Virus record (IMG/VR): IMGVR_UViG_3300028844_004708
Span: 1-20,173 of that record
Length of the DNA: 20,173 bases
From: a virus
Reading direction: 5' to 3' (one strand)
Shown here piece by piece: positions 1 through 19,091 of the stretch. The number at the start of each line of letters is the position of its first letter. Position 1 is the stretch's first letter. The position numbers and the translations under genes are program-made. Under the pieces are notes generated by a model that made no database searches, was not told where the DNA came from, and saw only the letters and a list, made by a program, of their open reading frames with translations.

Positions 1-731
1 CTTCTGTTAGAACGCTAACACCAAGATTTGTTATTAATTCTTTAGCTAATAATCAAACTACAGCCACTACAGCGGGTCTAGAGGTAACATCAACCACTAG
101 TCTTGACTTAGCTATTGGTTTTAATAACTCCGCTGATGGAAAACTTAACACATTAAAACAGATACCGGGTAATACTCCTACTACAAGAGGACTTGGGGTA
201 TATACTACAGCTAATGCTCTTGCTCCAATTCGTGCGAACTTGGTAATGCAAAGTGAGATATTTGGTAGCACTTCTGAAACAGCTGCTGTTCTTATACCAG
301 CAGGCATAGTAGTAGCTTGGGCAGGTTCTTCAGCCCCAGATGGCTGGTTAGAATGTAATGGCGCAGCAATAAGTAGAACAACATATGCTACATTGTTTGC
401 TATTGCAGGTACTGCTTTTGGCCCAGGGAATGGCTCTACTACTTTCAATATTCCAGATGTTAGAGGTAGAGCTATCTATGGAACTTCAACTGCTATTACC
501 AGAGGCGTCTCTTCTACCGCTGCATCATCTGGGATTACAAAAAGTGGTACTACGGGCGCTGGAGGGTCTGCCTCTCATACTTTAACTACTACTAGCGTTA
601 ATTCTACAAGTGATAAAGACGTAGCAGCTACAGTAGACGTAGTTACAGCAGTAGCAGCCCATCCAACACACACTCATAGTTTTAGTGTAGAATATCCTGG
701 AATTTCTATGATGTATATAATTAAAACCTAA
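1..731 (+). CDS. Tail fibre protein with C-terminal phage tail collar domain (5' partial)
   Basis: The reading frame is open from the left edge (first full codon at position 3), so only the C-terminal 242 residues are seen; the ATG at 240 is an internal methionine. The first ~95 visible residues are Thr/Asn/Ala-rich, like fibre shafts. Then comes a typical phage tail collar domain: PAGIVVAWAGS, DGWLECNG, a Tyr/Leu-rich stretch and FNIPDVRGR, which is the usual 'P-GW--C-G---...LPDLRGR' layout. The protein ends in a His-containing stretch and MMYIIKT, a common end for collar-type short-tail-fibre tips. It should sit in the virion and take part in host surface recognition. The next gene follows after 13 bases with a good GGAG ribosome site. 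The domain call is firm; which fibre it is (side or short tail fibre) cannot be told without the N terminus. Confidence 0.85.
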   Translation, partial: SVRTLTPRFVINSLANNQTTATTAGLEVTSTTSLDLAIGFNNSADGKLNTLKQIPGNTPTTRGLGVYTTANALAPIRANLVMQSEIFGSTSETAAVLIPAGIVVAWAGSSAPDGWLECNGAAISRTTYATLFAIAGTAFGPGNGSTTFNIPDVRGRAIYGTSTAITRGVSSTAASSGITKSGTTGAGGSASHTLTTTSVNSTSDKDVAATVDVVTAVAAHPTHTHSFSVEYPGISMMYIIKT

Positions 732-1201: not shown

Positions 1202-3082
1202 ATGGCCCTTACACAAATAACCAGTCAAGTAATAGCTTCTAACACTTTAATAGCAGATTTAATTGCTGATAATTCGTTAGAAACAAGACACTATTCTACT
1301 GAATCTATTACTGCAGATAAGCTAGCAGCAAATGTTGCTACTGCGGGACCGATTACGCTTGCTTTTCAGGCTAATGATTTTGCTACTTATCTTACCGCTA
1401 GAGGAGGGATTGTAGGGGCTAATACTTCTATAACAAATCTTGTAACTGGGCTAGATGGTTCTAATACTCGTTTAGCATCTGAAGAAGGTAACGTAATACT
1501 TTTACAGTTAGGTGCTTCTTCAGAGCGTAGTAACGTTGATTCTTTCACAAATAGTACTGATAACGTTGAGTTGGGCGCTGGTATTTTCCATTTAGATAAA
1601 AATAACAGATCACTAGGTTTAAGTAACACCGATCCTGGTGTTAGTAACATGGTATTTGGAACTCCTGCTAATATTACTATTAACTACGGTGCTACTCCTC
1701 AAATTATTATCAATAATCCTTCTCTAACTACCAGTTTTACTCTTGATGTATTTGGAACCGCTAATACTGGGGCTCTGACCGCTACGTCTGTTAGCTCTGC
1801 GGGAGTAGGACTAAGAGCTAATGATCATGCTACTTATTTAACCGCTAAAGGCGGTATTGACGGGGCTAATACAGCTATCAGTAATATAACAGACGGATCA
1901 ACGGCATTTACTGACGCTGTTACTATGAATGATGATTTAACAATTTTAGGTAACTTAACTGTCGCTGGTTCCTACGCTAATCTCGCTGTTCAAGATTCTT
2001 TTACAGATGATAGAATCATCTTCCTAGCTAATAACTTTACAGGGTCTCCCTCTCTTGACGCAGGCCTATTAATCAATAGAGGGTCTTCTGGTAATTTATT
2101 TATTGGATTTGACGAAAGCGAAGATTACTTTATATCCGCACTTAATAATGATCCTCCTACTAATACAGCAATTTCTATTGCCTCTGTTGCTAATTTTAGA
2201 ACAAATTTAGTTAGATCGGCAGACGGCAGTGCTAGCACCCCTGCTTATTCTAACTATGGCGATGAAAACACAGGTATGTATTTCTCAGGAGCGGACACTC
2301 TTAATTTTGCTACTGCAGGAGTTTCAAGACTACAAATTAGTTCTACTGGTGTAATTACTACTGCAGGTAGTGTAGAAACAACTGGCAGTCTCAGTGCTAC
2401 TGTAGATACAGTAGCTACAAACGCTGCTATAGCTGCAACGGTATTTTCTGGTGGAGTAGAGTTACGAGCTAATGACTATGTTACTTACTTAGTCGCTAAG
2501 GGAGGTATTGACGGAGCTAACACTAATATCGCTTCTAACGATACTGACATTACTAACCTAATAACTGGATTAGACGGTTCTAATACTAATATTTTAAGTG
2601 TTACTTCTAATGTGGGATTGAGTAATAATGCAGTAACTACCGCTTTCCAAGCAAATGATTTTATAACTTTCACCCGGATAAACGCTAATCTTAACCTTGT
2701 ATCTTCTAATGCCGATTCAAAACTAGACTTAGCGGGAGGCACTATGACAGGTGCTATTGCTATGGGTACTAATAAAATTACTGGCATGGGCGACCCTACA
2801 GCTGCGCAAGACGCAGCAACAAAAGCTTATACTGATGCCCTACTTGGGGCTAGTATTATTCCTCAATATACTTTAAATACCTCTTCAGGCACTTCAAATG
2901 TTTTTGCCATGACTAACTCTCCTACAAATCAAAATAGGATTCAAGTATATTTAGGGGGAGCGCAGCAACAATATGGAGCCTCAAATGCTTGGATTCATAA
3001 TACAGGTAATAACTCTATTCAATTTACCACTAATATTCCTGCAGGTATCGAGGTGTCTATTTATTCTTGGGATACCCCATAA
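1202..3082 (+). CDS. Long tail fibre protein with internal shaft repeats
   Basis: This 626-residue protein starts MALTQITSQVIASNTL, a style of N terminus seen in marine phage fibres, after an AGGAG site. It is rich in Asn, Thr, Ala and Ser and contains repeated 'xANDxxTYLxAxGGIxGANT' units at about residues 55, 204 and 421, with a degenerate fourth near 482. Residues 240-400 hold a beta-rich section with 'GNLTVAGS' and 'GDENTGMYFSGADTL', wording typical of phage fibre shafts that carry reference-image-like repeats. Residues 505-545 carry GTMTGAIAMGTNKITGMGDP followed by AAQDAATKAYTD, a widespread fibre motif. The C terminus (QYTLNTSSG...IYSWDTP) resembles a beta-sandwich tip. It has no chaperone or endosialidase-type autoprotease end. 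It acts in the virion in adsorption. The next gene's ribosome site follows the stop at once. Confidence 0.85.
   Translation: MALTQITSQVIASNTLIADLIADNSLETRHYSTESITADKLAANVATAGPITLAFQANDFATYLTARGGIVGANTSITNLVTGLDGSNTRLASEEGNVILLQLGASSERSNVDSFTNSTDNVELGAGIFHLDKNNRSLGLSNTDPGVSNMVFGTPANITINYGATPQIIINNPSLTTSFTLDVFGTANTGALTATSVSSAGVGLRANDHATYLTAKGGIDGANTAISNITDGSTAFTDAVTMNDDLTILGNLTVAGSYANLAVQDSFTDDRIIFLANNFTGSPSLDAGLLINRGSSGNLFIGFDESEDYFISALNNDPPTNTAISIASVANFRTNLVRSADGSASTPAYSNYGDENTGMYFSGADTLNFATAGVSRLQISSTGVITTAGSVETTGSLSATVDTVATNAAIAATVFSGGVELRANDYVTYLVAKGGIDGANTNIASNDTDITNLITGLDGSNTNILSVTSNVGLSNNAVTTAFQANDFITFTRINANLNLVSSNADSKLDLAGGTMTGAIAMGTNKITGMGDPTAAQDAATKAYTDALLGASIIPQYTLNTSSGTSNVFAMTNSPTNQNRIQVYLGGAQQQYGASNAWIHNTGNNSIQFTTNIPAGIEVSIYSWDTP
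1361..2690 (+). repeat. Imperfect intragenic repeats in the tail fibre (four copies of the 'AND...GANT' unit)
   Basis: Units begin near 1361, 1811, 2462 and 2642. The first three encode ANDFATYLTARGGIVGANT, ANDHATYLTAKGGIDGANT and ANDYVTYLVAKGGIDGANT; the fourth keeps only FQANDFITF and then diverges. Copies 1 and 3 also share the following ITNL(V/I)TGLDGSNT. Similarity is clear at the protein level and partial at the DNA level. They probably form repeating shaft elements of the trimeric fibre. Confidence 0.8.
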
Positions 3083-3092
3083 TGAGGAGTTT

Positions 3093-4073
3093 ATGCGTAA
3101 ATATCGACAACTAACTACAGAGCTAACTTTTAGATGTAATGCAAAATGCCCGGCTTGTCATAGGCTAAAACCTTTAAGAATAAATTTAAGTGATAAAGCC
3201 TACACTTATAGTTTAGATAGATTTCAACAAGTATTTTACCCAGAATTTTTAGAACAGCTAGATTGGTTAGTTTTAAATGGTAATTTCGGAGACTCTATTA
3301 TGAATAAAGAGTTTCGTGAAATTATTTCTTATGTGAAACAACATGGTACAAGATTAAATATTCATACTAATGGCGGCTTACATGATCAAAATTACTGGAC
3401 AGATGTAGGTAATATTTTAACTGATAAAGATATTATTAATTTTGATTTAGATGGGTTAGAAGACACTCATTCTATGTACAGAATAAATACTAATTTTAAC
3501 ACAGTCTTTAATAATGCTCGTTCTGTTATTGGTACTAAACGTCCTCAAGTCCACTGGAAGTATATTGTATTCGAGCATAATAAACATCAGGTTGAGCGAG
3601 CAAAAGAAATTGCACTAAAAGAAGGATTTCACTCTTTTTCAACTGTAAAAACTGGTAGAGATTTTGCAGCGCCTAAATCTGGTCAATATGTTCATTTAAA
3701 AAAGAAAACAGATTTAAATAACTTACCAAAAGAAATTAATTGTAGCTGGGAGTCTTGGGGTAAATGGTATGTTTCTCCTAACGGTTTAGTATTTAGGTGT
3801 TGTTGGACAGGTGCTCACTATTTTGATAAAACTCCAGACAGATTTTATTATCCTCAAGAGTTAGAAGACTTATTTGACGCCACTAAAGTTCCTTTAGAAA
3901 AAATCTTATCTTACAATTATTGGAACAAGCTTAAACAGTATTTACAAGGCTATGATAGAAGCTTTAAGATTTGTAAGTCTCAATGTGGTAAAGTTTTAAG
4001 TAGTAGAGAAAAGATAGAGGAAAATTTGTCTACTGGAGAGCTTACAGTATTTTCTGCAGGAGCAGGAATGTAA
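3093..4073 (+). CDS. Radical SAM enzyme with Twitch/SPASM-like auxiliary cluster domain
   Basis: The start chosen is the ATG at 3093 with GAGGAG 3-8 bases upstream of it; the frame is open further back to 2973 but that part lies inside the fibre gene. The product is 326 residues. The N terminus carries the radical SAM CX3CX2C motif (Cys15, Cys19, Cys22) after TELTFRC, and LNGNFGDS (61-68) takes the place of the usual GGEPL loop. INIHTNGG-type strands follow. Cys217, Gly231 and Cys236 fit the CX13GX4C pattern, and Cys294/Cys298 (CX3C) complete a possible second 4Fe-4S site, as in Twitch/SPASM enzymes, many of which modify peptides. The substrate is unknown. The protein ends in GAGAGM. It sits among tail and virion genes, so a virion or small phage protein could be the target; this is inference. 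Confidence 0.85.
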   Translation: MRKYRQLTTELTFRCNAKCPACHRLKPLRINLSDKAYTYSLDRFQQVFYPEFLEQLDWLVLNGNFGDSIMNKEFREIISYVKQHGTRLNIHTNGGLHDQNYWTDVGNILTDKDIINFDLDGLEDTHSMYRINTNFNTVFNNARSVIGTKRPQVHWKYIVFEHNKHQVERAKEIALKEGFHSFSTVKTGRDFAAPKSGQYVHLKKKTDLNNLPKEINCSWESWGKWYVSPNGLVFRCCWTGAHYFDKTPDRFYYPQELEDLFDATKVPLEKILSYNYWNKLKQYLQGYDRSFKICKSQCGKVLSSREKIEENLSTGELTVFSAGAGM

Positions 4074-5028: not shown

Positions 5029-5175
5029 ATGCCGATTAGGAAAGTAAAAGGCGGATACCGTTGGGGCAGTTCTGGAAAAGTTTACCCCACAAAAGGTCAA
5101 GCTGCTAAACAAGCAGCAGCGGCTTATGCTTCTGGCTACAAAAAGCCAAAAAGCAAAGGAGGAAAGAAGAAATGA
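5029..5175 (+). CDS. 48-residue basic protein (GGYRWG...GKVY type)
   Basis: The start is the ATG at 5029, two bases after the previous stop, giving MPIRKVKGGYRWGSSGKVYP and a Lys-rich end (KKPKSKGGKKK). The earlier in-frame codon at 4987 lies inside the upstream gene. Short proteins of the 'VKGGYRWGxSGKVY---xxAxxQAxAxYASGYK' kind recur in tailed phage genomes near head and tail genes; I recall the pattern but not a proven function. The positive charge suits nucleic acid or capsid contact. Translation is probably coupled to the genes on both sides; its last codons overlap the next ATG (ATGA). Confidence 0.75.
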   Translation: MPIRKVKGGYRWGSSGKVYPTKGQAAKQAAAAYASGYKKPKSKGGKKK

Positions 5176-5345
5176 TTATCGTAGATTGGATTAAAGATAG
5201 AGTAAAAGAAAGAACATCATGGGACGGAGGTGCTTTGATCGCTATTGGCGTTATTGGGCTATTCTTCTCTGCCATTGTTCCTTTTAGTCTTATCTGCTGG
5301 GCAGCGATTGCTTGGGGCGCCTGGACAGCGTGGAAATCAGAGTAA
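5172..5345 (+). CDS. 57-residue small membrane protein
   Basis: The ATG at 5172 overlaps the previous stop (ATGA) and has a near-perfect ribosome site, AAAGGAGG at 5155-5162. The product is MIIVDWIKDRVKERTSWDGG followed by a hydrophobic stretch from about residue 21 to 53 (ALIAIGVIGLFFSAIVPF, then SLICWAAIAWGAWTAW) and KSE at the end. That length fits one long or two short helices with an amphipathic, charged N terminus. 'KERTSWDG' followed by a membrane segment is a layout I recall from small cyanophage-type proteins of unknown function. It could be a minor virion or envelope-acting protein; a holin is possible from size alone but unsupported. Confidence 0.75.
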   Translation: MIIVDWIKDRVKERTSWDGGALIAIGVIGLFFSAIVPFSLICWAAIAWGAWTAWKSE

Positions 5346-5376
5346 AAACCCTACCTTAATAAGAGTTTATTATTAT

Positions 5377-5574
5377 TTGCCAGACTATTCTAGCTTGTTG
5401 CAAGAATTTGTCTGGCAAACTCTTGATATACCCCCTCAATTTTATAGAGTTCATAAATTTTTAAATTACTGGAAAGACAATATAGAAGCTACTATTAGTG
5501 AGGTAGAAGTTTCTTACGTGGAAAGATCAATAGGGGATGAATACATTAAAAAGTACATTAGAGAGGTTTTCTAA
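5377..5574 (+). CDS. Small unknown protein lacking an ATG/GTG start
   Basis: The frame ending at 5574 reads convincingly as protein from at least 5359 (IRVYYYLPDYSS...FVWQTLDIPPQFYRVHKF...NYWKDNIEATISEVEVSYVE). It has no ATG or GTG between the end of the preceding gene (5345) and its own body. The TTG at 5377, 11 bases after a TAAGAG stretch, is the first standard-alternative start and is used here. An ATA at 5359 or a +1 frameshift out of the membrane-protein gene would include the IRVYYY segment. A TTG at 5245 also exists in frame but is buried in the upstream gene. The 3' end overlaps the next gene by 38 bases. No family is recognised; Trp/Tyr content is high. Confidence 0.55.
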   Translation: MPDYSSLLQEFVWQTLDIPPQFYRVHKFLNYWKDNIEATISEVEVSYVERSIGDEYIKKYIREVF

Positions 5575-6901
5575 AATTCAACCTGATAAGGTTGCTTTAT
5601 ATGATATAGATAATGATATACAAATAACATGGAAAGAGCTTTTAGAAGAAAGTCTTAAGTTATCTAAAACAGAAAATTTTACTAATTACGAAGATTTACA
5701 TATAATTGAAAAAGATAATTCTATTGAGCTAGTTAAAGAAATGCTGGCTTGTTACTTAGCAGGTAAAGTATTTTTCTCTATAGGCAGTCCTTTCCTAAAA
5801 GACTTTCAAAAATCTTCTCAGATTAATTTTGTAAAACAAAACTTTGTGTATAAAAAAGGTGTTTTTCAAATAAGAGTGTCTAGCGGCTCGACTGACAAAG
5901 CTAAATTTTTCTATGCTACAGAGCAACACCGACTTTTTAGTGCTGAAGTAGTTAAACAAAAACTTAAAATTACTAGAAAAGACTCTATACTTCCAATGGG
6001 GTTGCCTTTGAGTACTGGATTTGGCGATAATTGTATTATTAGAAGTTTGGTCGCTGGATGTAGATTACTTTTAACAAATAAATACGGAGTTAATGATTTT
6101 TTACGACAACTGGAAACTCACAAACCAACCTTAGTTTTTTCTAGCTCTGGGGGTATTTCCCAATTTTATATTAATAAAGGTAAATACATCGAAGATTTTA
6201 ATATAAAACTATCCCCAAGAGTTTGGTGGTCTGGTGCAGGCCCTCTAACTTATGAATTTGCAAAAAAAGTAGAAAATATATTAGAAGGAAAAGTTATCCA
6301 AACTTATTTATCTACAGAGTGCTCTATACCCCATCTTCCTAATTTAACAGACCCTATAGAAACAAGAATAGGAACTGTAGGTAAATTAACTGAAGGCATA
6401 CTTTCAGAAGATGGAGAAATTTTAATTCATAAGGATAATATTTCTGAAACTGTAGGAGGAGTAACTCCTTTTGATGGAGATTATTATCATACAGGTGACT
6501 TAGGAAAATTAGACTTAACGGGAAACTTAATTATAACTGGTAGAAAAAAATTAGTCATAAATGACGGAGATAATGATTTAAATCCTTTTGAAATAGAAAA
6601 AGCATTATCCGCTATTAGTACTGATATAGTATGTGTTGGAATAAAAATTAATAGAATATACCCTGATCAAGAATCCCCTTGTTTAGTTATCAAAGGTCCT
6701 AAACTAAATATAGATGAGATTAAGAACATATTATTAAAATCTTTAAATGTAAATTTACAACATTATTACTATATAGATGAGTTCCCTAAATTAAAAAATT
6801 ATAAAGTTGATCGAGTAAAACTATCGAAAGACTCTCAAAATTTATATACTAATATTTCTGAGACATTCGACAAATATGATGTTTCCTTAGTTACTAAATA
6901 G
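5537..6901 (+). CDS. ANL-superfamily adenylate-forming enzyme (acyl-CoA synthetase / AMP-ligase type)
   Basis: This 454-residue protein is somewhat short for the family (usually about 500-550). Motifs in order: phosphate-binding loop RVSSGSTDKAKF (113-124); SGAGPL (A4-like, 232-237); TYLSTE (256-261, in place of YGxTE); HTGDLGKLD (318-326) with the ribose-binding Asp; GRKKLVINDGDNDLNPFEIE (335-354) at the domain hinge; and NYKVDRVK (421-428) holding the candidate catalytic A10 lysine. Such enzymes activate a carboxylate with ATP to an acyl-adenylate and usually pass it to CoA, a carrier protein or an amine. The substrate cannot be read, and I see no carrier protein with a DSL-type phosphopantetheine site in the window. 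It overlaps the previous gene and lies downstream of the radical SAM gene. Its presence in a phage structural region is unusual. Confidence 0.85.
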   Translation: MNTLKSTLERFSKIQPDKVALYDIDNDIQITWKELLEESLKLSKTENFTNYEDLHIIEKDNSIELVKEMLACYLAGKVFFSIGSPFLKDFQKSSQINFVKQNFVYKKGVFQIRVSSGSTDKAKFFYATEQHRLFSAEVVKQKLKITRKDSILPMGLPLSTGFGDNCIIRSLVAGCRLLLTNKYGVNDFLRQLETHKPTLVFSSSGGISQFYINKGKYIEDFNIKLSPRVWWSGAGPLTYEFAKKVENILEGKVIQTYLSTECSIPHLPNLTDPIETRIGTVGKLTEGILSEDGEILIHKDNISETVGGVTPFDGDYYHTGDLGKLDLTGNLIITGRKKLVINDGDNDLNPFEIEKALSAISTDIVCVGIKINRIYPDQESPCLVIKGPKLNIDEIKNILLKSLNVNLQHYYYIDEFPKLKNYKVDRVKLSKDSQNLYTNISETFDKYDVSLVTK

Positions 6902-6928
6902 CAATGGCGGACATTTAAAAAATAACTA

Positions 6929-6962: not shown

Positions 6963-7136
6963 ATGGCTGATTTAAGATACAAAGGTAAGAAAATGAAGTC
7001 TCACCTTGACAAAATGCTTGCTAAATATCGGCGTGGCGAGTCTATCGGAGCAACCGCAGAAGCTAGACTTAAGGCTCGTGGATTGATTAAAAAAAAATCA
7101 GGCAAAAAACGTAAAGGAAAATTAGGTATATCCTAA
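6963..7136 (+). CDS. 57-residue basic protein
   Basis: The product is MADLRYKGKKMKSHLDKMLA, then KYRRGESIGATAEARLKARG and a Lys-rich tail (KKKSGKKRKGK). 'LDKMLAKYRRGESIGxTAxxxLKARGLI' resembles a family of short basic phage proteins I have seen in marine phage genomes, without known function. The ATG at 6963 has no ribosome site and lies just past a TATAAT. The in-frame ATG at 6993 has AAAGG about seven bases upstream and would give a 47-residue product, so the start is uncertain. The charge suggests DNA or capsid binding. Confidence 0.7.
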   Translation: MADLRYKGKKMKSHLDKMLAKYRRGESIGATAEARLKARGLIKKKSGKKRKGKLGIS

Positions 7137-7676: not shown

Positions 7677-7816
7677 TGGAAATCCCGGCTTTTTTACAAC
7701 GGACAATGCCTAAAATAAAGAAAAAGGCGTACAGCAAGAAGAAAAAAGATTCTATTGCTGTACGCCTTAAATCTGGAAAAGGCATTTCAAAGAAAAAACG
7801 TCAACGGCGTAAATAG
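7676..7816 (+). CDS. 46-residue Lys/Arg-rich protein
   Basis: The ATG at 7676 overlaps the previous stop (TAATG). The product begins MEIPAFLQRTMPKIKKKAYS and ends in GISKKKRQRRK; about half of the residues are Lys or Arg, which suggests nucleic acid binding or a packaged basic peptide. The last 16 bases overlap the convergent - strand gene ending at 7801. A 14-base-pair inverted repeat, which serves as a terminator signal on the - strand, lies inside the coding sequence, so the Lys-rich codons (AAA/AAG) double as its U-tract on the other strand. It is the last + strand gene in the window. Confidence 0.65.
   Translation: MEIPAFLQRTMPKIKKKAYSKKKKDSIAVRLKSGKGISKKKRQRRK
7708..7768 (-). terminator. 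Intrinsic terminator for the leftward operon
   Basis: A perfect 14-base-pair inverted repeat (arms 7724-7737 and 7755-7768, AAGGCGTACAGCAA and its complement) has a 17-base loop. Read on the - strand, the hairpin is followed at once by TTTTTCTTTATTTT. It lies 33 bases past the stop of the last leftward gene and inside the last rightward gene. On the + strand the hairpin has no T-run after it. Confidence 0.8.
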
Positions 7817-8352
7817 TCTCCATAAGTATTTTTAAACCAAGCATGTTTACCAGGGGCGCAGATATAAGGCTGCGCCTTACTTGTTTCTATAACCTTTTGA
7901 TAAATCTCATCAATTCCTTCTACATCAATACTAAAGAATACTAAATCTTCATGGTCTAGATTGGAGTAATCGTATTCTTTACCATCTATATGAATTATAT
8001 CTATATTTTTAACCCCACATTTTTTAATTAAAAACTTGCTAAGTTTTACGCATTTTTCTTCATAGTCAAGTCCAATAATTTTTAAACTCGGAAATTCTTT
8101 ATGCAAATCTAGCATACTGTAAGGATACATTCCTGATCCTACCATAATTAGAGTCTTACATGTTTTAAATTTTGAAGCACACTTTTTTTCTAATAGAGTT
8201 TCTTTTATCCAATTTTTTCTAGGTTGTTTAGAAATAAATAGATCATATCTTTCATTTTTTATAATCCATTCAATAAACTTAAATTCTGTTTCTTTTAGCC
8301 CACGCTTCCAATTAGCTTCTAGTTTTTTAAATGTTTTGGAGGTATCTAGCAC
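7801..8352 (-). CDS. SAM-binding Rossmann protein, nicotianamine-synthase-like or methyltransferase
   Basis: This 183-residue protein starts at a GTG at 8352, preceded by AAGGAG nine bases upstream; that site lies in the end of the upstream glycosyltransferase gene (26-base overlap). Residues 68-79 (LIMVGSGMYPYS) form the SAM-binding glycine loop, with a Pro at 77 that recalls the GxGxxPxS loop of nicotianamine synthase-like enzymes more than ordinary methyltransferases. IGLDYEEKCVKLSK (93-106) gives the acidic ribose-binding Asp96, and IIHIDGKEYDY (119-129) and DLVFFSIDVEG (136-146) complete a class I fold. The family either moves a methyl group or, in nicotianamine synthases, an aminobutyl group from SAM. 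The substrate is unknown. It pairs with the glycosyltransferase, and it is the last gene of the leftward operon. Confidence 0.75.
   Translation of the reverse strand: MLDTSKTFKKLEANWKRGLKETEFKFIEWIIKNERYDLFISKQPRKNWIKETLLEKKCASKFKTCKTLIMVGSGMYPYSMLDLHKEFPSLKIIGLDYEEKCVKLSKFLIKKCGVKNIDIIHIDGKEYDYSNLDHEDLVFFSIDVEGIDEIYQKVIETSKAQPYICAPGKHAWFKNTYGDYLRR
7853..7888 (+). terminator. Probable intrinsic terminator for the rightward operon
   Basis: GGCGCAG (7855-7861) pairs with CTGCGCC (7870-7876), extended by G-U pairs, with an 8-base loop, followed by TTACTTGTTTCT. It lies about 40 bases past the last + strand stop and inside the 3' end of the opposing gene. The U-tract is interrupted, so the call is weaker than for its - strand counterpart. 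Confidence 0.5.
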
Positions 8353-9439
8353 TATTAGTAGCTCCTTCTAGATTCAAATCATTATTATATGGAAATTTTT
8401 CATCCTCTAAAATTTCAGAAAGTAAAGTATAAATTCTTGGTAGTTCGTAGTACGAACATACTTTGAACATTCCATACTCTTTAAATAAGTAGCATCTTAT
8501 TAATTGCTCTAGTTTATGCCCGTCTTGTCTGGGAATTATTATGGAAGGAATTTTAGCTTTTAAAATATCTGTTGTACTATTATAACCTCCATAAGTTATA
8601 TAAGCTGTACAAGTTTCTAACTGCTTTGATAAATTTGGAATATAGTTATGAATTGTAATATTCTTACTACTTTTATCTCCAATTTTTTGATGTAGCTCTG
8701 AATTGCCTAACACAACATTAAAATGTAAATCAGGAAATCTTTTTGCTACTGACTTTAATATTTTATTATAGATAAAAAAACTTTCTTCTTTATTTAGCCC
8801 ACAACTAATATAAACATTATTGTCTGCTTTTTTATGTTGTTTAATTTCTGGATTACATACATAACCTGTATAATATAATCTTTTATCTATATCAGGGTAT
8901 AATTCGCTCCAATAATAGTTTCTAGTCGCATCCGACATTAGAGGTAAGTATCTATCATCCCCATGAACCATTATGTTACAGTCAAAAGTTTCAATAACAT
9001 AGTTAATAGTTTTTGCAACCCAATCTTGAATACTAGCATATTGAGGCTCATCCCAGGGATAGTCCCTAATACTAATTACAATTTTAATTCCTTTTTCTTT
9101 AGCAGTTTCTAAGGCAGAAAAATACTCATAAGAAAATTGTTGCCTACAAAAAGGAAACCCCTCGCAAACTAAAATAGAAATATCATTATTATTTATTAAT
9201 TTTTTAAGTGTTGCTGCCCTTTGCCTAACTTTGTCCTGTTTCATTAAGTATTTAAAGTCATTACTAACTTTATCTGGACGCTCCTCTAAATAATAAGTAT
9301 ATTTAGTATTATACTTAATAGGAGGAGAGTATAATTGGTCTATCACAATAAAAGAGTCTTGTGGAAGCATATCACTGATATACTTCGTTCTCATAGCATG
9401 TCCAAGTCCTCTATAATACTGTGATAGAAAACAAATCAT
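8327..9439 (-). CDS. GT-B glycosyltransferase, MurG/COG4671-like
   Basis: This 370-residue protein starts at an ATG overlapping the ThyX stop (ATGA). The N-terminal domain opens with YYRGLGHAMRTKYIS (8-22), the Gly-rich acceptor-side loop of MurG-like GT-B enzymes. IRDYPWDEP (124-132) and VHGDDRYLPL (158-167) match the COG4671-type layout as I remember it. The C-terminal donor-binding region has TYGGYNSTTDIL (282-293), then PRQDGHKLEQLIR (303-315), the 'GG-NT--E-L...P...EQ--R' signature. It would transfer a sugar from a nucleotide donor. The acceptor is not visible. In a nucleotide-metabolism operon, phage DNA bases are one candidate; a surface or small-molecule acceptor is another. No signal peptide or membrane segment is present. 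Confidence 0.8.
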   Translation of the reverse strand: MICFLSQYYRGLGHAMRTKYISDMLPQDSFIVIDQLYSPPIKYNTKYTYYLEERPDKVSNDFKYLMKQDKVRQRAATLKKLINNNDISILVCEGFPFCRQQFSYEYFSALETAKEKGIKIVISIRDYPWDEPQYASIQDWVAKTINYVIETFDCNIMVHGDDRYLPLMSDATRNYYWSELYPDIDKRLYYTGYVCNPEIKQHKKADNNVYISCGLNKEESFFIYNKILKSVAKRFPDLHFNVVLGNSELHQKIGDKSSKNITIHNYIPNLSKQLETCTAYITYGGYNSTTDILKAKIPSIIIPRQDGHKLEQLIRCYLFKEYGMFKVCSYYELPRIYTLLSEILEDEKFPYNNDLNLEGATNSARYLQNI

Positions 9440-16458: not shown

Positions 16459-18285
16459 CTACTCAATATGACTAATGTTATTTTCTTTTATAATTGAAAT
16501 TTTTTCAATTAGAGGGTGTGTAAAATCATGTGAGATTAAAAACACATTTAAATTTTCTTCTTCTTGTAAAATATCAATAAGTTTTTCTTTACCGGCATCA
16601 TCTAGTACGCCAGTTATTTCGTCTAAGAATAACAAATTGATGTAATTACCACCTATTTTTGATAATAGGCTGCGAATAGAAAGAAGAATAGCAGTTTGAA
16701 TCCTGCTAAACTCACCGCCAGAGACAGTTTCAATGGGTGTTTCTTTACCATCATTGACAACTACGATATTGAGTTTTTCTCCATCAAGTCTGAACACTAC
16801 TTGGAATTTACCATCAGATAGCTCTGCTAAGTATCTATTTATGGTATCTTCAAGCTCTTTTGTTAGATTTTCAAGTTTAAACGCTACGATACCTGTTGTG
16901 CTAAATGCTTTTCTTAAAATTGTTATATTTTTGATTTTTGAAGTTAAAGAAATTATATCAGAATTTAATAGGAGTTGTCTATCTAAAAATTGTCGTTTTT
17001 GTTCAATTAGGGCTTCTACTTTAGTATTGTGAATCTTAACTTGCTCGTTATGTTCCAGTGCTTCGTTTTTTAAACTTTCTTGTTCTCGTAGAGTTCTACT
17101 GAAGGTTCGTAGTTCATTTTCAATTTTTGTATAGTCTGGATATTCAGTAGGTAAGTTAGAATCAATTAGCTGAGTAAGCTGTTCAAACTTTTCGATAGCA
17201 GCGACATTTTTGCCATATTCTTTATCTAATCGAAAATATTCATCTAGTGTTTTTTGTAGTTCTTCTAGCTTGTTTTCTTCTTTTATTAAGTCTTGTTTAT
17301 GACTTACTAGTTCTAGTTCAAAATTAGCCTTCATTTGTATTACTTTAGAGTTATCTATTGCTTGCCCACAAGCATAACAAATATCAGTAGTATCGAGTCC
17401 CTTAAGTTGTTTATTTATTTCAGAGATACGATTTTTTCTCTTTGAGACGTTGTTTTTTGCGGTTTCAAACTCGTCATTTATTGAGTCATTTAATTCGGGA
17501 GATTTTAGTGAGACATCAAATTTTAAAGAATTTCTGTCATCAATAAAACCATTGTTTCGATCTATCTTTTTACACTGAGCTTCATAGTCTTCTAATTCAT
17601 TTTTTAGTCTAGCAATCTTTTGTCGCAAAGTATCATCTACTTCTGGAACATCTACTAGTTCTTGTGGTTCTGCAATTTGAGCCTCTCCAAGAAATGCTTT
17701 TACAGTTTTCATTTCTCCGTTCTTTGTTGCTAAATCTCTTTCAAGAGTTGTAAGACTGACTTTTAGCACATCACCGATTGCAACATACTTTTCAAGACCA
17801 AATAGATTAATTAAGAATTTTTTACGATTTGTATCTGTTGCTTTGATAAAGTCTAAGAGGTCTGTAGAGCTTTGATATGTTAGCTGAGAAAATACTTCAA
17901 AGTTCATTCCAAGAATGTTAGATATCTTCTTGTATGTATCTGGTACTTTGTGATCAGAAATATCTACTCCATTTTCAAATAGAGATACCTTACTGGAGCT
18001 TCCTACACGTTTTACATCAACTTTATAGTTTTTTGCGTTTACCTTAAATTCTAAGCTACCAGACCAATCTTTGCTATTACTATACCGATTAATAATATCT
18101 CCTTTCTTAATATTTTTAATATTCTTAGAAAAGAGCATTTCTTGAATTATTAGTGCAATTGTTGATTTACCACTACCATTTGCAGCAGTTAACTGAGTAA
18201 TCTTATTCTCGTTAATAGAAAGCTCATTACCCGTCCCATAACTGAACATATTATTAAATTTTAAATTTTCTAAAGTTATTTCCAT
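16459..18285 (-). CDS. 46: SbcC/Rad50-like ATPase, T4 gp46 homologue
   Basis: This 608-residue protein has the ABC ATPase layout: Walker A AANGSGKST (34-42), then two long coiled-coil arms (about 180-300 and 310-440) around a zinc-hook CYAC (Cys303, Cys306), then the signature VSGGE (521-525), Walker B LLFLDE (551-556) and the H-loop SHD (His586). It is short, as phage gp46 proteins usually are. With gp47 it forms the ATP-dependent exonuclease that resects DNA ends for recombination and replication, and degrades host DNA in T4. Its start overlaps the PP-loop gene by 10 bases. Confidence 0.95.
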   Translation of the reverse strand: MEITLENLKFNNMFSYGTGNELSINENKITQLTAANGSGKSTIALIIQEMLFSKNIKNIKKGDIINRYSNSKDWSGSLEFKVNAKNYKVDVKRVGSSSKVSLFENGVDISDHKVPDTYKKISNILGMNFEVFSQLTYQSSTDLLDFIKATDTNRKKFLINLFGLEKYVAIGDVLKVSLTTLERDLATKNGEMKTVKAFLGEAQIAEPQELVDVPEVDDTLRQKIARLKNELEDYEAQCKKIDRNNGFIDDRNSLKFDVSLKSPELNDSINDEFETAKNNVSKRKNRISEINKQLKGLDTTDICYACGQAIDNSKVIQMKANFELELVSHKQDLIKEENKLEELQKTLDEYFRLDKEYGKNVAAIEKFEQLTQLIDSNLPTEYPDYTKIENELRTFSRTLREQESLKNEALEHNEQVKIHNTKVEALIEQKRQFLDRQLLLNSDIISLTSKIKNITILRKAFSTTGIVAFKLENLTKELEDTINRYLAELSDGKFQVVFRLDGEKLNIVVVNDGKETPIETVSGGEFSRIQTAILLSIRSLLSKIGGNYINLLFLDEITGVLDDAGKEKLIDILQEEENLNVFLISHDFTHPLIEKISIIKENNISHIE

Positions 18286-19091
18286 GTTAAAAATACTTGT
18301 CCTTTTCTTGCACTATCTTTATATACAGGAGTATCTAACAGCATTTTGTATTTTAGTAAATGCTGTAGAGCTTCCCATCCAGTTCTTTTTGTTCTCTTTT
18401 TGAGATTTGGGTAACAGTCATAGATAAATTTATTATCTTTATCTCCTGGCTGTGAGGGGTCGTAGTTTAGTAGATAGTGCATAAATATCGGTTCTAAACT
18501 AGTGAATGTAAAAAAATTGTTTTCTGTATTGATAGCGTACTTTACTAGATTAGGAGAGTCTTCCCACCATCCTATTCCAAGTCTGCTAAAATCAGGATTA
18601 TGCCCAGAAAAGATTAAAATATCTTTTTCTGTCATAAATTCAAATAAGTATGTGAGAGCTACTTGACTCAGTGAATTTGTAAATTGACCATGCAGTACAG
18701 CTTTTGGGACAACTTCTTCAATAAACTCTGACAAGTCTAGATCTATAAAATTATAGTTTATGCTTCTATCCTTACAAAACTGTTTTACATAGATAAGATC
18801 AAATGCATTTTGTGCATCAAATAAACTGAGTGATATAGCTTCAAAAGGAATACCTAGTTGGTAAAATGTTTCTGCTGTTATCTCAGAATCAATGCCTCCG
18901 CTCATTGCTATAAAAAAATTATGATGGCGATAGGTATCTGCAAATTCTCTAGCAAGAGAAAATAAATCGTGCCTAATAGACACTCCGTATCTTTTATATC
19001 TGGGGCAGGTTACTTTAGCAGAGGAAAAAGGAGTTGGTCTCCACCAATCTCCGTTATTATACTCCCAGTATACTCTATTAAGTTCCAACAT
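18276..19091 (-). CDS. PP-loop ATP pyrophosphatase-type protein of unknown substrate
   Basis: This 271-residue protein carries a PP-loop SGGIDSE at 64-70 after NFFIAM, the N-type ATP pyrophosphatase motif used by asparagine synthase-like, tRNA-sulphur and queuosine-pathway enzymes. The N terminus (WEYNNGDWWRPTPFSSAKVT) and the SGHNPDFSRLGIGWWEDS stretch are Trp- and Asp-rich. I see no zinc-binding Cys cluster, no glutaminase domain and no thiolase domain. It would activate a substrate as an AMP ester, then aminate or thiolate it. It lies between gp47 and gp46 and overlaps both (14 and 10 bases), so it is made with them. Which molecule it modifies cannot be read from sequence. Confidence 0.75.
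   Translation of the reverse strand: MLELNRVYWEYNNGDWWRPTPFSSAKVTCPRYKRYGVSIRHDLFSLAREFADTYRHHNFFIAMSGGIDSEITAETFYQLGIPFEAISLSLFDAQNAFDLIYVKQFCKDRSINYNFIDLDLSEFIEEVVPKAVLHGQFTNSLSQVALTYLFEFMTEKDILIFSGHNPDFSRLGIGWWEDSPNLVKYAINTENNFFTFTSLEPIFMHYLLNYDPSQPGDKDNKFIYDCYPNLKKRTKRTGWEALQHLLKYKMLLDTPVYKDSARKGQVFLTWK

Follow-up and report, generated by a model that had tools for sequence, protein, structure and literature searches.

A gene downstream of the tail-fibre genes of a marine T4-like phage contig encodes an adenylate-forming (ANL, AMP-binding) enzyme and is mobile cargo, a swapped-in accessory gene in marine T4-like phages. Our preferred reading, which we hold at a probability of about one half, is that the product is a trimmed, working ANL enzyme of a phage clade, borne as mobile late cargo, which would transfer an acyl group from acyl-AMP to CoA or an amine and would probably alter the host envelope.

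The window, that is the whole 20,173-base IMG/VR virus record analysed here, is a marine T4-like phage contig; 166 phage records match its NrdA at ~72-75% DNA identity, almost all of them from Synechococcus or Prochlorococcus phages. A sequence-only reading of the window had placed the ANL gene in a phage structural region, which holds in the sense that it is one of the plus-strand genes downstream of the tail-fibre genes, with a tail collar protein at the left end (Table 1).

Table 1. Features of the window (positions in bases).
Feature	Position	Strand	Basis or context
Left half: tail collar, likely tail-fibre, radical SAM, small proteins, Usg-like, ANL		+	one block
Tail collar protein	3-731	+	Pfam 4e-23
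Likely tail-fibre protein	1202-3082	+	
Radical SAM/SPASM-like protein	3090-4073	+	resident in phage group
Small membrane-protein-like ORF	5172-5345	+	left flank of segment; kept in L017, L021, L022, L024, L025
Inserted/replacing segment (Usg-like ORF and ANL)	5346-6912	+	junction comparison with L021, L022, L024, L025
Usg-like ORF (PF06233)	5347-5574	+	Pfam 4.9e-18
ANL enzyme, 454 aa, ATG start	5537-6901	+	Pfam AMP-binding, motifs, AF2 fold, tree
Small basic ORF	6963-7136	+	right flank of segment; 95-98% identity in L021/L022
Methyltransferase-like resident gene	7801-8352	-	right landmark of interval; conserved across group
Resident glycosyltransferase	8327-9439		adjoins methyltransferase-like gene
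Right half: methyltransferase- and glycosyltransferase-like genes, ThyX, dUTPase-like gene		-	
Right half: T4-like RNase H, glutaredoxin, NrdB, NrdA, gp46, gp47		-	by reading
PP-loop ATP pyrophosphatase-like gene	18276-19091	-	between gp46 and gp47

Motifs and fold of the window enzyme

The translated ANL frame matches Pfam AMP-binding (PF00501) with an E-value of 9.1e-14 and 51.5 bits (cut-off: 29.9), and 70 NCBIfam models match it, the best being ANL ligases (7e-19) and all scoring far under their equivalog cut-offs. Motifs A3 (S115-S-G-S-T-D-K-A-K123), A5 (S-T-E261), A7 (H-T-G-D321), A8 (G-R336-K-K) and A10 (K423-V-D-R) are at the right places, and the key residues G117, T119, K123, E261, D321, R336, E354 and K423 are present, among them the A5 Glu, A7 Asp, A8 Arg and A10 Lys. 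The P-loop (SSGSTDKAKF) departs from the canonical form in that Asp120 replaces the Gly after T119, with Lys123 kept; this Gly is a detail of the motif that neither the PF00501 profile nor the fold requires. Compared with normal ANL enzymes, the window protein lacks ~40-50 residues between A2 and A3 and ~13 residues before the G293-E294 motif.

Two further positions that are Gly in normal ANL enzymes are occupied by D345 and Y422. The former is the second position of the A8 GG motif, where the Gly looked for as a mark of acyl-CoA ligases is absent from the window protein and present in its homologues L102, L118, L119 and L120; we take it to correspond to Gly524 of acetyl-CoA synthetase, which lines the pantetheine tunnel. 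Y422 replaces the Gly that precedes the A10 Lys. Other members of the phage clade described below keep Gly at both positions wherever these can be read, so that the replacement is confined to the window, where the second half-reaction may be altered or missing.

A structure model was computed with AF2 from 12 sequences (mean pLDDT 83, pTM 0.75), replacing a poor first model from 5 sequences (pLDDT 59). The best 50 PDB matches of the second model are all ANL enzymes, with TM-scores up to 0.76, and it has the two-domain ANL fold. The motifs, the Pfam match and the modelled fold together bear out the sequence-only reading, which had named a divergent ANL enzyme with all core motifs recognisable. 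NRPS adenylation domains share these core motifs, and no carrier or condensation domain was seen adjacent to the gene in the window; the alpha-amino-binding Asp235 of PheA presumably maps to Gly161 of the window protein. Among PADLOC profiles, neither the ANL nor the Usg-like protein matches any anti-phage defence protein.

A phage clade and its cellular relatives

Scanning viral contigs with the single window protein returned nothing, and alignment searches of viral contigs recovered the same family in seven further IMG/VR contigs (five distinct loci, 31-39% identity), all of them T4-like. Identity to the window enzyme is 39% for L102/L116 and 31-33% for L119, L117, L118 and L120 (equal to L121 and L122). 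A maximum-likelihood tree with 27 rows unites the five distinct sequences from phages (window, L102, L118, L119 and L120) in one clade with support of 100/100 and a stem of 2.08 changes per column, and the signature [YF]QI[RK][MV]SSG[ST]T[DNG]xAKF is present in 5/5 of them. The P-loop position after S/T-T is D, N or G among homologues, and three members have Asp there. The A5 Glu is missing from L102 and the A7 Thr from L120, so that not every copy need be active.

A profile HMM of the clade scored 652-749 bits on the phage members from which it was built; L112, a phage ANL of another kind, reached 36 bits, and no match exceeded 108 bits in a cellular search of 296 Bacteroidota genomes. Four of the best five Bacteroidota matches (L158, L160-L162) are read as MenE from menC-, menA- and hotdog-thioesterase-like neighbours, by reading and not by profile, and MenE also ranked first when PDB was searched with the ANL by hmmsearch. 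MenE (o-succinylbenzoate-CoA ligase, TIGR01923; PDB 5buq, 3ipl) shares with the window enzyme the ANL fold and the spacing of the A4 region. It differs at 24-26% identity, with the P-loop Gly replaced by Asp, HxxG by T-G-F-G-D and a shorter N-terminal domain in the window protein, which reaches 60.8 bits against the TIGR01923 equivalog cut-off of 330; menaquinone gene context was found neither in the window nor at the homologue loci. On the sequences compared, the clade is deeply separate, found so far only in marine T4-like viruses and nearest to MenE-like acyl-CoA ligases.

Two pattern scans of 84,980 cellular genomes returned no clade member and only two ordinary acyl-CoA synthetases; because such scans require short exact peptide patterns, "phage-only" here means that none has been found so far. 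Several candidate members were set aside: L125/L126 (Bacteroidota) are ordinary acyl-CoA synthetases, and L103-L110 and L113-L115 are ordinary FadD-like genes on contigs that look bacterial or misbinned. No member of the family occurs in 50,697 named phage records, where match H1 proved to be bacterial DNA, a MenE operon on an Enterococcus contig marked "unverified", and the other matches align no better than H1. With 0/50,697 named records and seven related IMG/VR contigs, the earlier statement that such genes are not standard in phages stands.

Phage ANL enzymes of other kinds were also seen. L111/L112 hold an ordinary one (L112:5776-7149) with normal motifs and P-loop, outside the clade in the tree, on a contig that also carries gp32-like and NodU-type carbamoyltransferase-like genes. 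This protein and two BFVD entries from uncultured Caudovirales (A0A6J5L563, A0A6J7WHT9) are similar in length to the window enzyme, with 17-22% identity to it. As phage ANLs already exist as annotations, the kind is known, and what appears new is the clade, the altered P-loop and the cargo behaviour, none of which was found described in our literature search; searches on Usg and on ANL or auxiliary metabolic genes in phages found no papers.

Purifying selection on the ANL gene shows only mild strength: between L118 and L120, dN/dS is ~0.4-0.5, compared with ~0.2 for the neighbouring asparagine-synthetase-like (AsnS-like) gene and ~0.1 for gp16. Between the window and L102, dS is saturated and both frames are intact. 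The sequence-only reading had named two findings that would count against it, homologues present only as degraded copies, and loss of the A10 Lys and ATP-loop residues; a nonsense codon interrupts L119 alone, all other homologues being open, and the A10 Lys is kept in all.

The inserted segment and the cargo slots

In four related contigs (L021, L022, L024, L025), a ~225-bp coiled-coil-like ORF (~73 aa) occupies the place where the window has the Usg-like ORF and the ANL gene. The slot is limited by the stop of the small membrane protein at 5345 and by conserved intergenic sequence from ~6913. The left junction, GAGTAAAAAC, is common to the window and L017, whose contig ends there, and other relatives read GAGTAATATG; L017 is the closest relative (radical SAM 98%, 88% nucleotide identity over the left flank). 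Neither ANL nor Usg was found in any of the 40 related contigs that cover the whole interval from the radical SAM gene to the methyltransferase-like gene, which measures 2.0-2.7 kb in them and 3.7 kb in the window. The GC3 of the window ANL is 17%, under that of its neighbours. The homologues in L117-L122 lie in another slot, directly after gp16 and before gp17 (gp names by reading). Late-promoter-like ATAAATA sites were not above chance. The methyltransferase-like gene is small and has weak similarity to the staphylopine enzyme CntL (1.4e-5).

The Usg-like ORF matches PF06233 with 65.5 bits (cut-off: 27) and overlaps the first 38 bases of the ANL gene. It has no ATG, GTG or TTG near the N-terminus of the conserved core, and upstream no stop interrupts its frame as far as a TTG at 5245, which overlaps the preceding gene. 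Usg-like genes were found in 15 contigs, usually after gp23 or before gp17. Those relatives that begin with a normal start codon belong to T4-like phages and lie close to gp23, gp15 or gp17; in L119 one lies 1.3 kb before the ANL gene. In a control set of well-known genomes, PF06233 was found in Caulobacter only. This cellular family recurs as a T4-like phage gene (L002-L016, L119 and the window).

The sequence-only reading had also proposed a small pathway of the ANL and radical SAM genes, which we abandon. A search with the radical SAM gene gave 122 matching stretches, of which 80 loci were kept; at least 80 contigs carry the gene as a resident, and it is present without ANL or Usg in 40/40 covered intervals. 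Between the window and L018-L020 it has 94-95% identity, against 29-48% for the tail genes before it, which points to a recent exchange of this single gene between phages. In L018, a marine T4-like phage, the slot directly behind the 94%-identical gene has taken up a cassette (L018:9040-15391) that comprises a DegT aminotransferase, an NAD-dependent epimerase and four proteins of the radical SAM type. Zaragoza-Solas et al. 2020 (PMC7029224) call the tail-fibre region of pelagimyophages a "host recognition cluster", in which they note LPS-related genes, and describe radical SAM cassettes that differ between close relatives. The L018 cassette fits this description. Features in common are a T4-like late region that combines tail fibres with LPS-related genes and cassettes of radical SAM genes; the main text of that paper mentions neither ANL nor Usg-like genes.

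In L117, L118 and L120-L122 the stop of the ANL gene is overlapped by an AsnS-like gene, and in L102 by a gene with GATase and AsnS parts; the window and L119 ANL genes have no adjoining AsnS. The L118-type AsnS-like gene is resident at gp16-gp17 and occurs without ANL in 21/26 contigs, so that its adjacency to ANL is at least partly positional. The PP-loop gene of the window was considered as an AsnB-like partner and rejected, its AsnB similarity being restricted to the surroundings of the PP-loop and the gene not adjoining the ANL. The gp15-gp17 region (L117-L122, L127-L151) is a hot spot with exchangeable AsnS-like genes with and without GATase, sometimes ANL, repeated PP-loop ATPases (SGGINSTYS) and a conserved 274-aa protein. 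In the cargo region of L118 (1242-2139), a radical SAM gene is frameshifted into two frames.

Proposed role and alternatives

The predicted first half-reaction would convert ATP and a carboxylic acid to acyl-AMP and pyrophosphate by means of the A3, A5, A7 and A8 residues and Lys423; the C-terminal domain would then rotate, and the acyl group would pass to CoA or an amine. The ANL gene moves singly, as an accessory gene, from one marine T4-like phage to another and enters late-operon cargo slots (after the tail-fibre genes, or between gp16 and gp17), and would probably be produced late alongside the structural genes. The host envelope might then be altered, for example by acylation of a surface sugar or lipid; the amino-sugar genes in the cargo slot of a sister phage make host-surface modification the probable role. 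Against this, the only glycan gene beside the window ANL is the resident glycosyltransferase, and the weak purifying selection, the broken L119 copy, the altered P-loop and the residue losses in L102 and L120 would likewise speak against the preferred reading.

As to the acceptor, ancestry points to CoA, and D345 and Y422 of the window enzyme seem to point away from it. A CoA-independent ligase that passes acyl-AMP to an amine, as amide bond synthetases do, with a virion protein or an amino sugar as a possible target, is a serious but minority possibility. It would account for D345 in the presumed pantetheine tunnel and for Y422, and several homologues adjoin amide-forming AsnS-like genes. Amide bond synthetases (PDB 8pyx, 8ppp) share the ANL fold, and their reaction would suit D345; they were among the fold matches of the poor first model, where Foldseek gave 15% identity, no closer than CoA ligases. 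Against it stand the Gly residues kept elsewhere in the clade, the CoA ligases as the nearest cellular enzymes and the many AsnS-like genes that lack ANL. We regard as doubtful a catabolic or membrane-lipid acyl-CoA ligase, an auxiliary metabolic gene feeding host fatty or aromatic acids into host CoA metabolism: its best cellular relatives would be the MenE/acyl-CoA ligases found here, but neither the window nor the surroundings of the homologues hold another lipid or menaquinone gene, the tree places the clade far away from all cellular families sampled, and the slot and neighbours are unlike such metabolic operons.

That the gene is a decaying passenger, brought by recombination and idle in the window phage, we consider improbable. 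The Usg-like ORF without a canonical start near its core, the interrupted L119 copy, the mild selection and the carriage by one contig of the window's phage group (perhaps two, with L017) would all fit decay, but 454 codons are open at 29% GC, catalytic residues are conserved at 31-39% identity across several distinct phages, and the window and L102 frames are intact despite saturated dS. An obligate pair of ANL and AsnS-like (or radical SAM) enzymes making one product is very unlikely: the overlaps at the ANL stop favour it, and it conflicts with the two ANL genes that lack an adjoining AsnS as well as with the AsnS-like and radical SAM genes that stand without ANL. Least probable is a chimeric assembly in which DNA from a cell or another phage was fused into the contig. 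The segment is missing from all closely related, fully covered contigs and the GC3 of the ANL is low, but the independent contig L017 has the same left junction, unlike all other relatives, and ANL and Usg both belong to the gene repertoire of T4-like phages and lie close together in L119.

A combination of an ANL gene with an asparagine-synthetase-like gene presumably also occurs in the exopolysaccharide (EPS) clusters defined by TIGR03098 and TIGR03108. The exosortase-A-associated acyl-CoA ligase of these clusters (TIGR03098) matches the window ANL weakly (2.7e-12), and the amidotransferase (TIGR03108) matches the L102 neighbour weakly (2.7e-4), both far under cut-off; no exosortase, carrier protein or decarboxylase was seen with the phage ANL. 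A broader and speculative reading, to which we give little credence, is that the virus-specific minimal ANL clade and the AsnS-like, GATase-AsnS and PP-loop ATPase genes of the same late slots would form a toolkit with which the phages modify the host surface or virion through amide or ester formation, with the window enzyme as a CoA-independent amide ligase.

ANL enzymes are common in cells and hardly described in phages. A clade so far seen only in viruses and marked by an altered P-loop and shortened domains adds a new branch to a superfamily that has been studied in depth. Marine T4-like phages also exchange carboxyl-activating enzymes of several kinds through their gp14-gp17 and tail-fibre cargo slots, which raises the testable question of whether these phages chemically modify the surface of the infected cell or their own particles.
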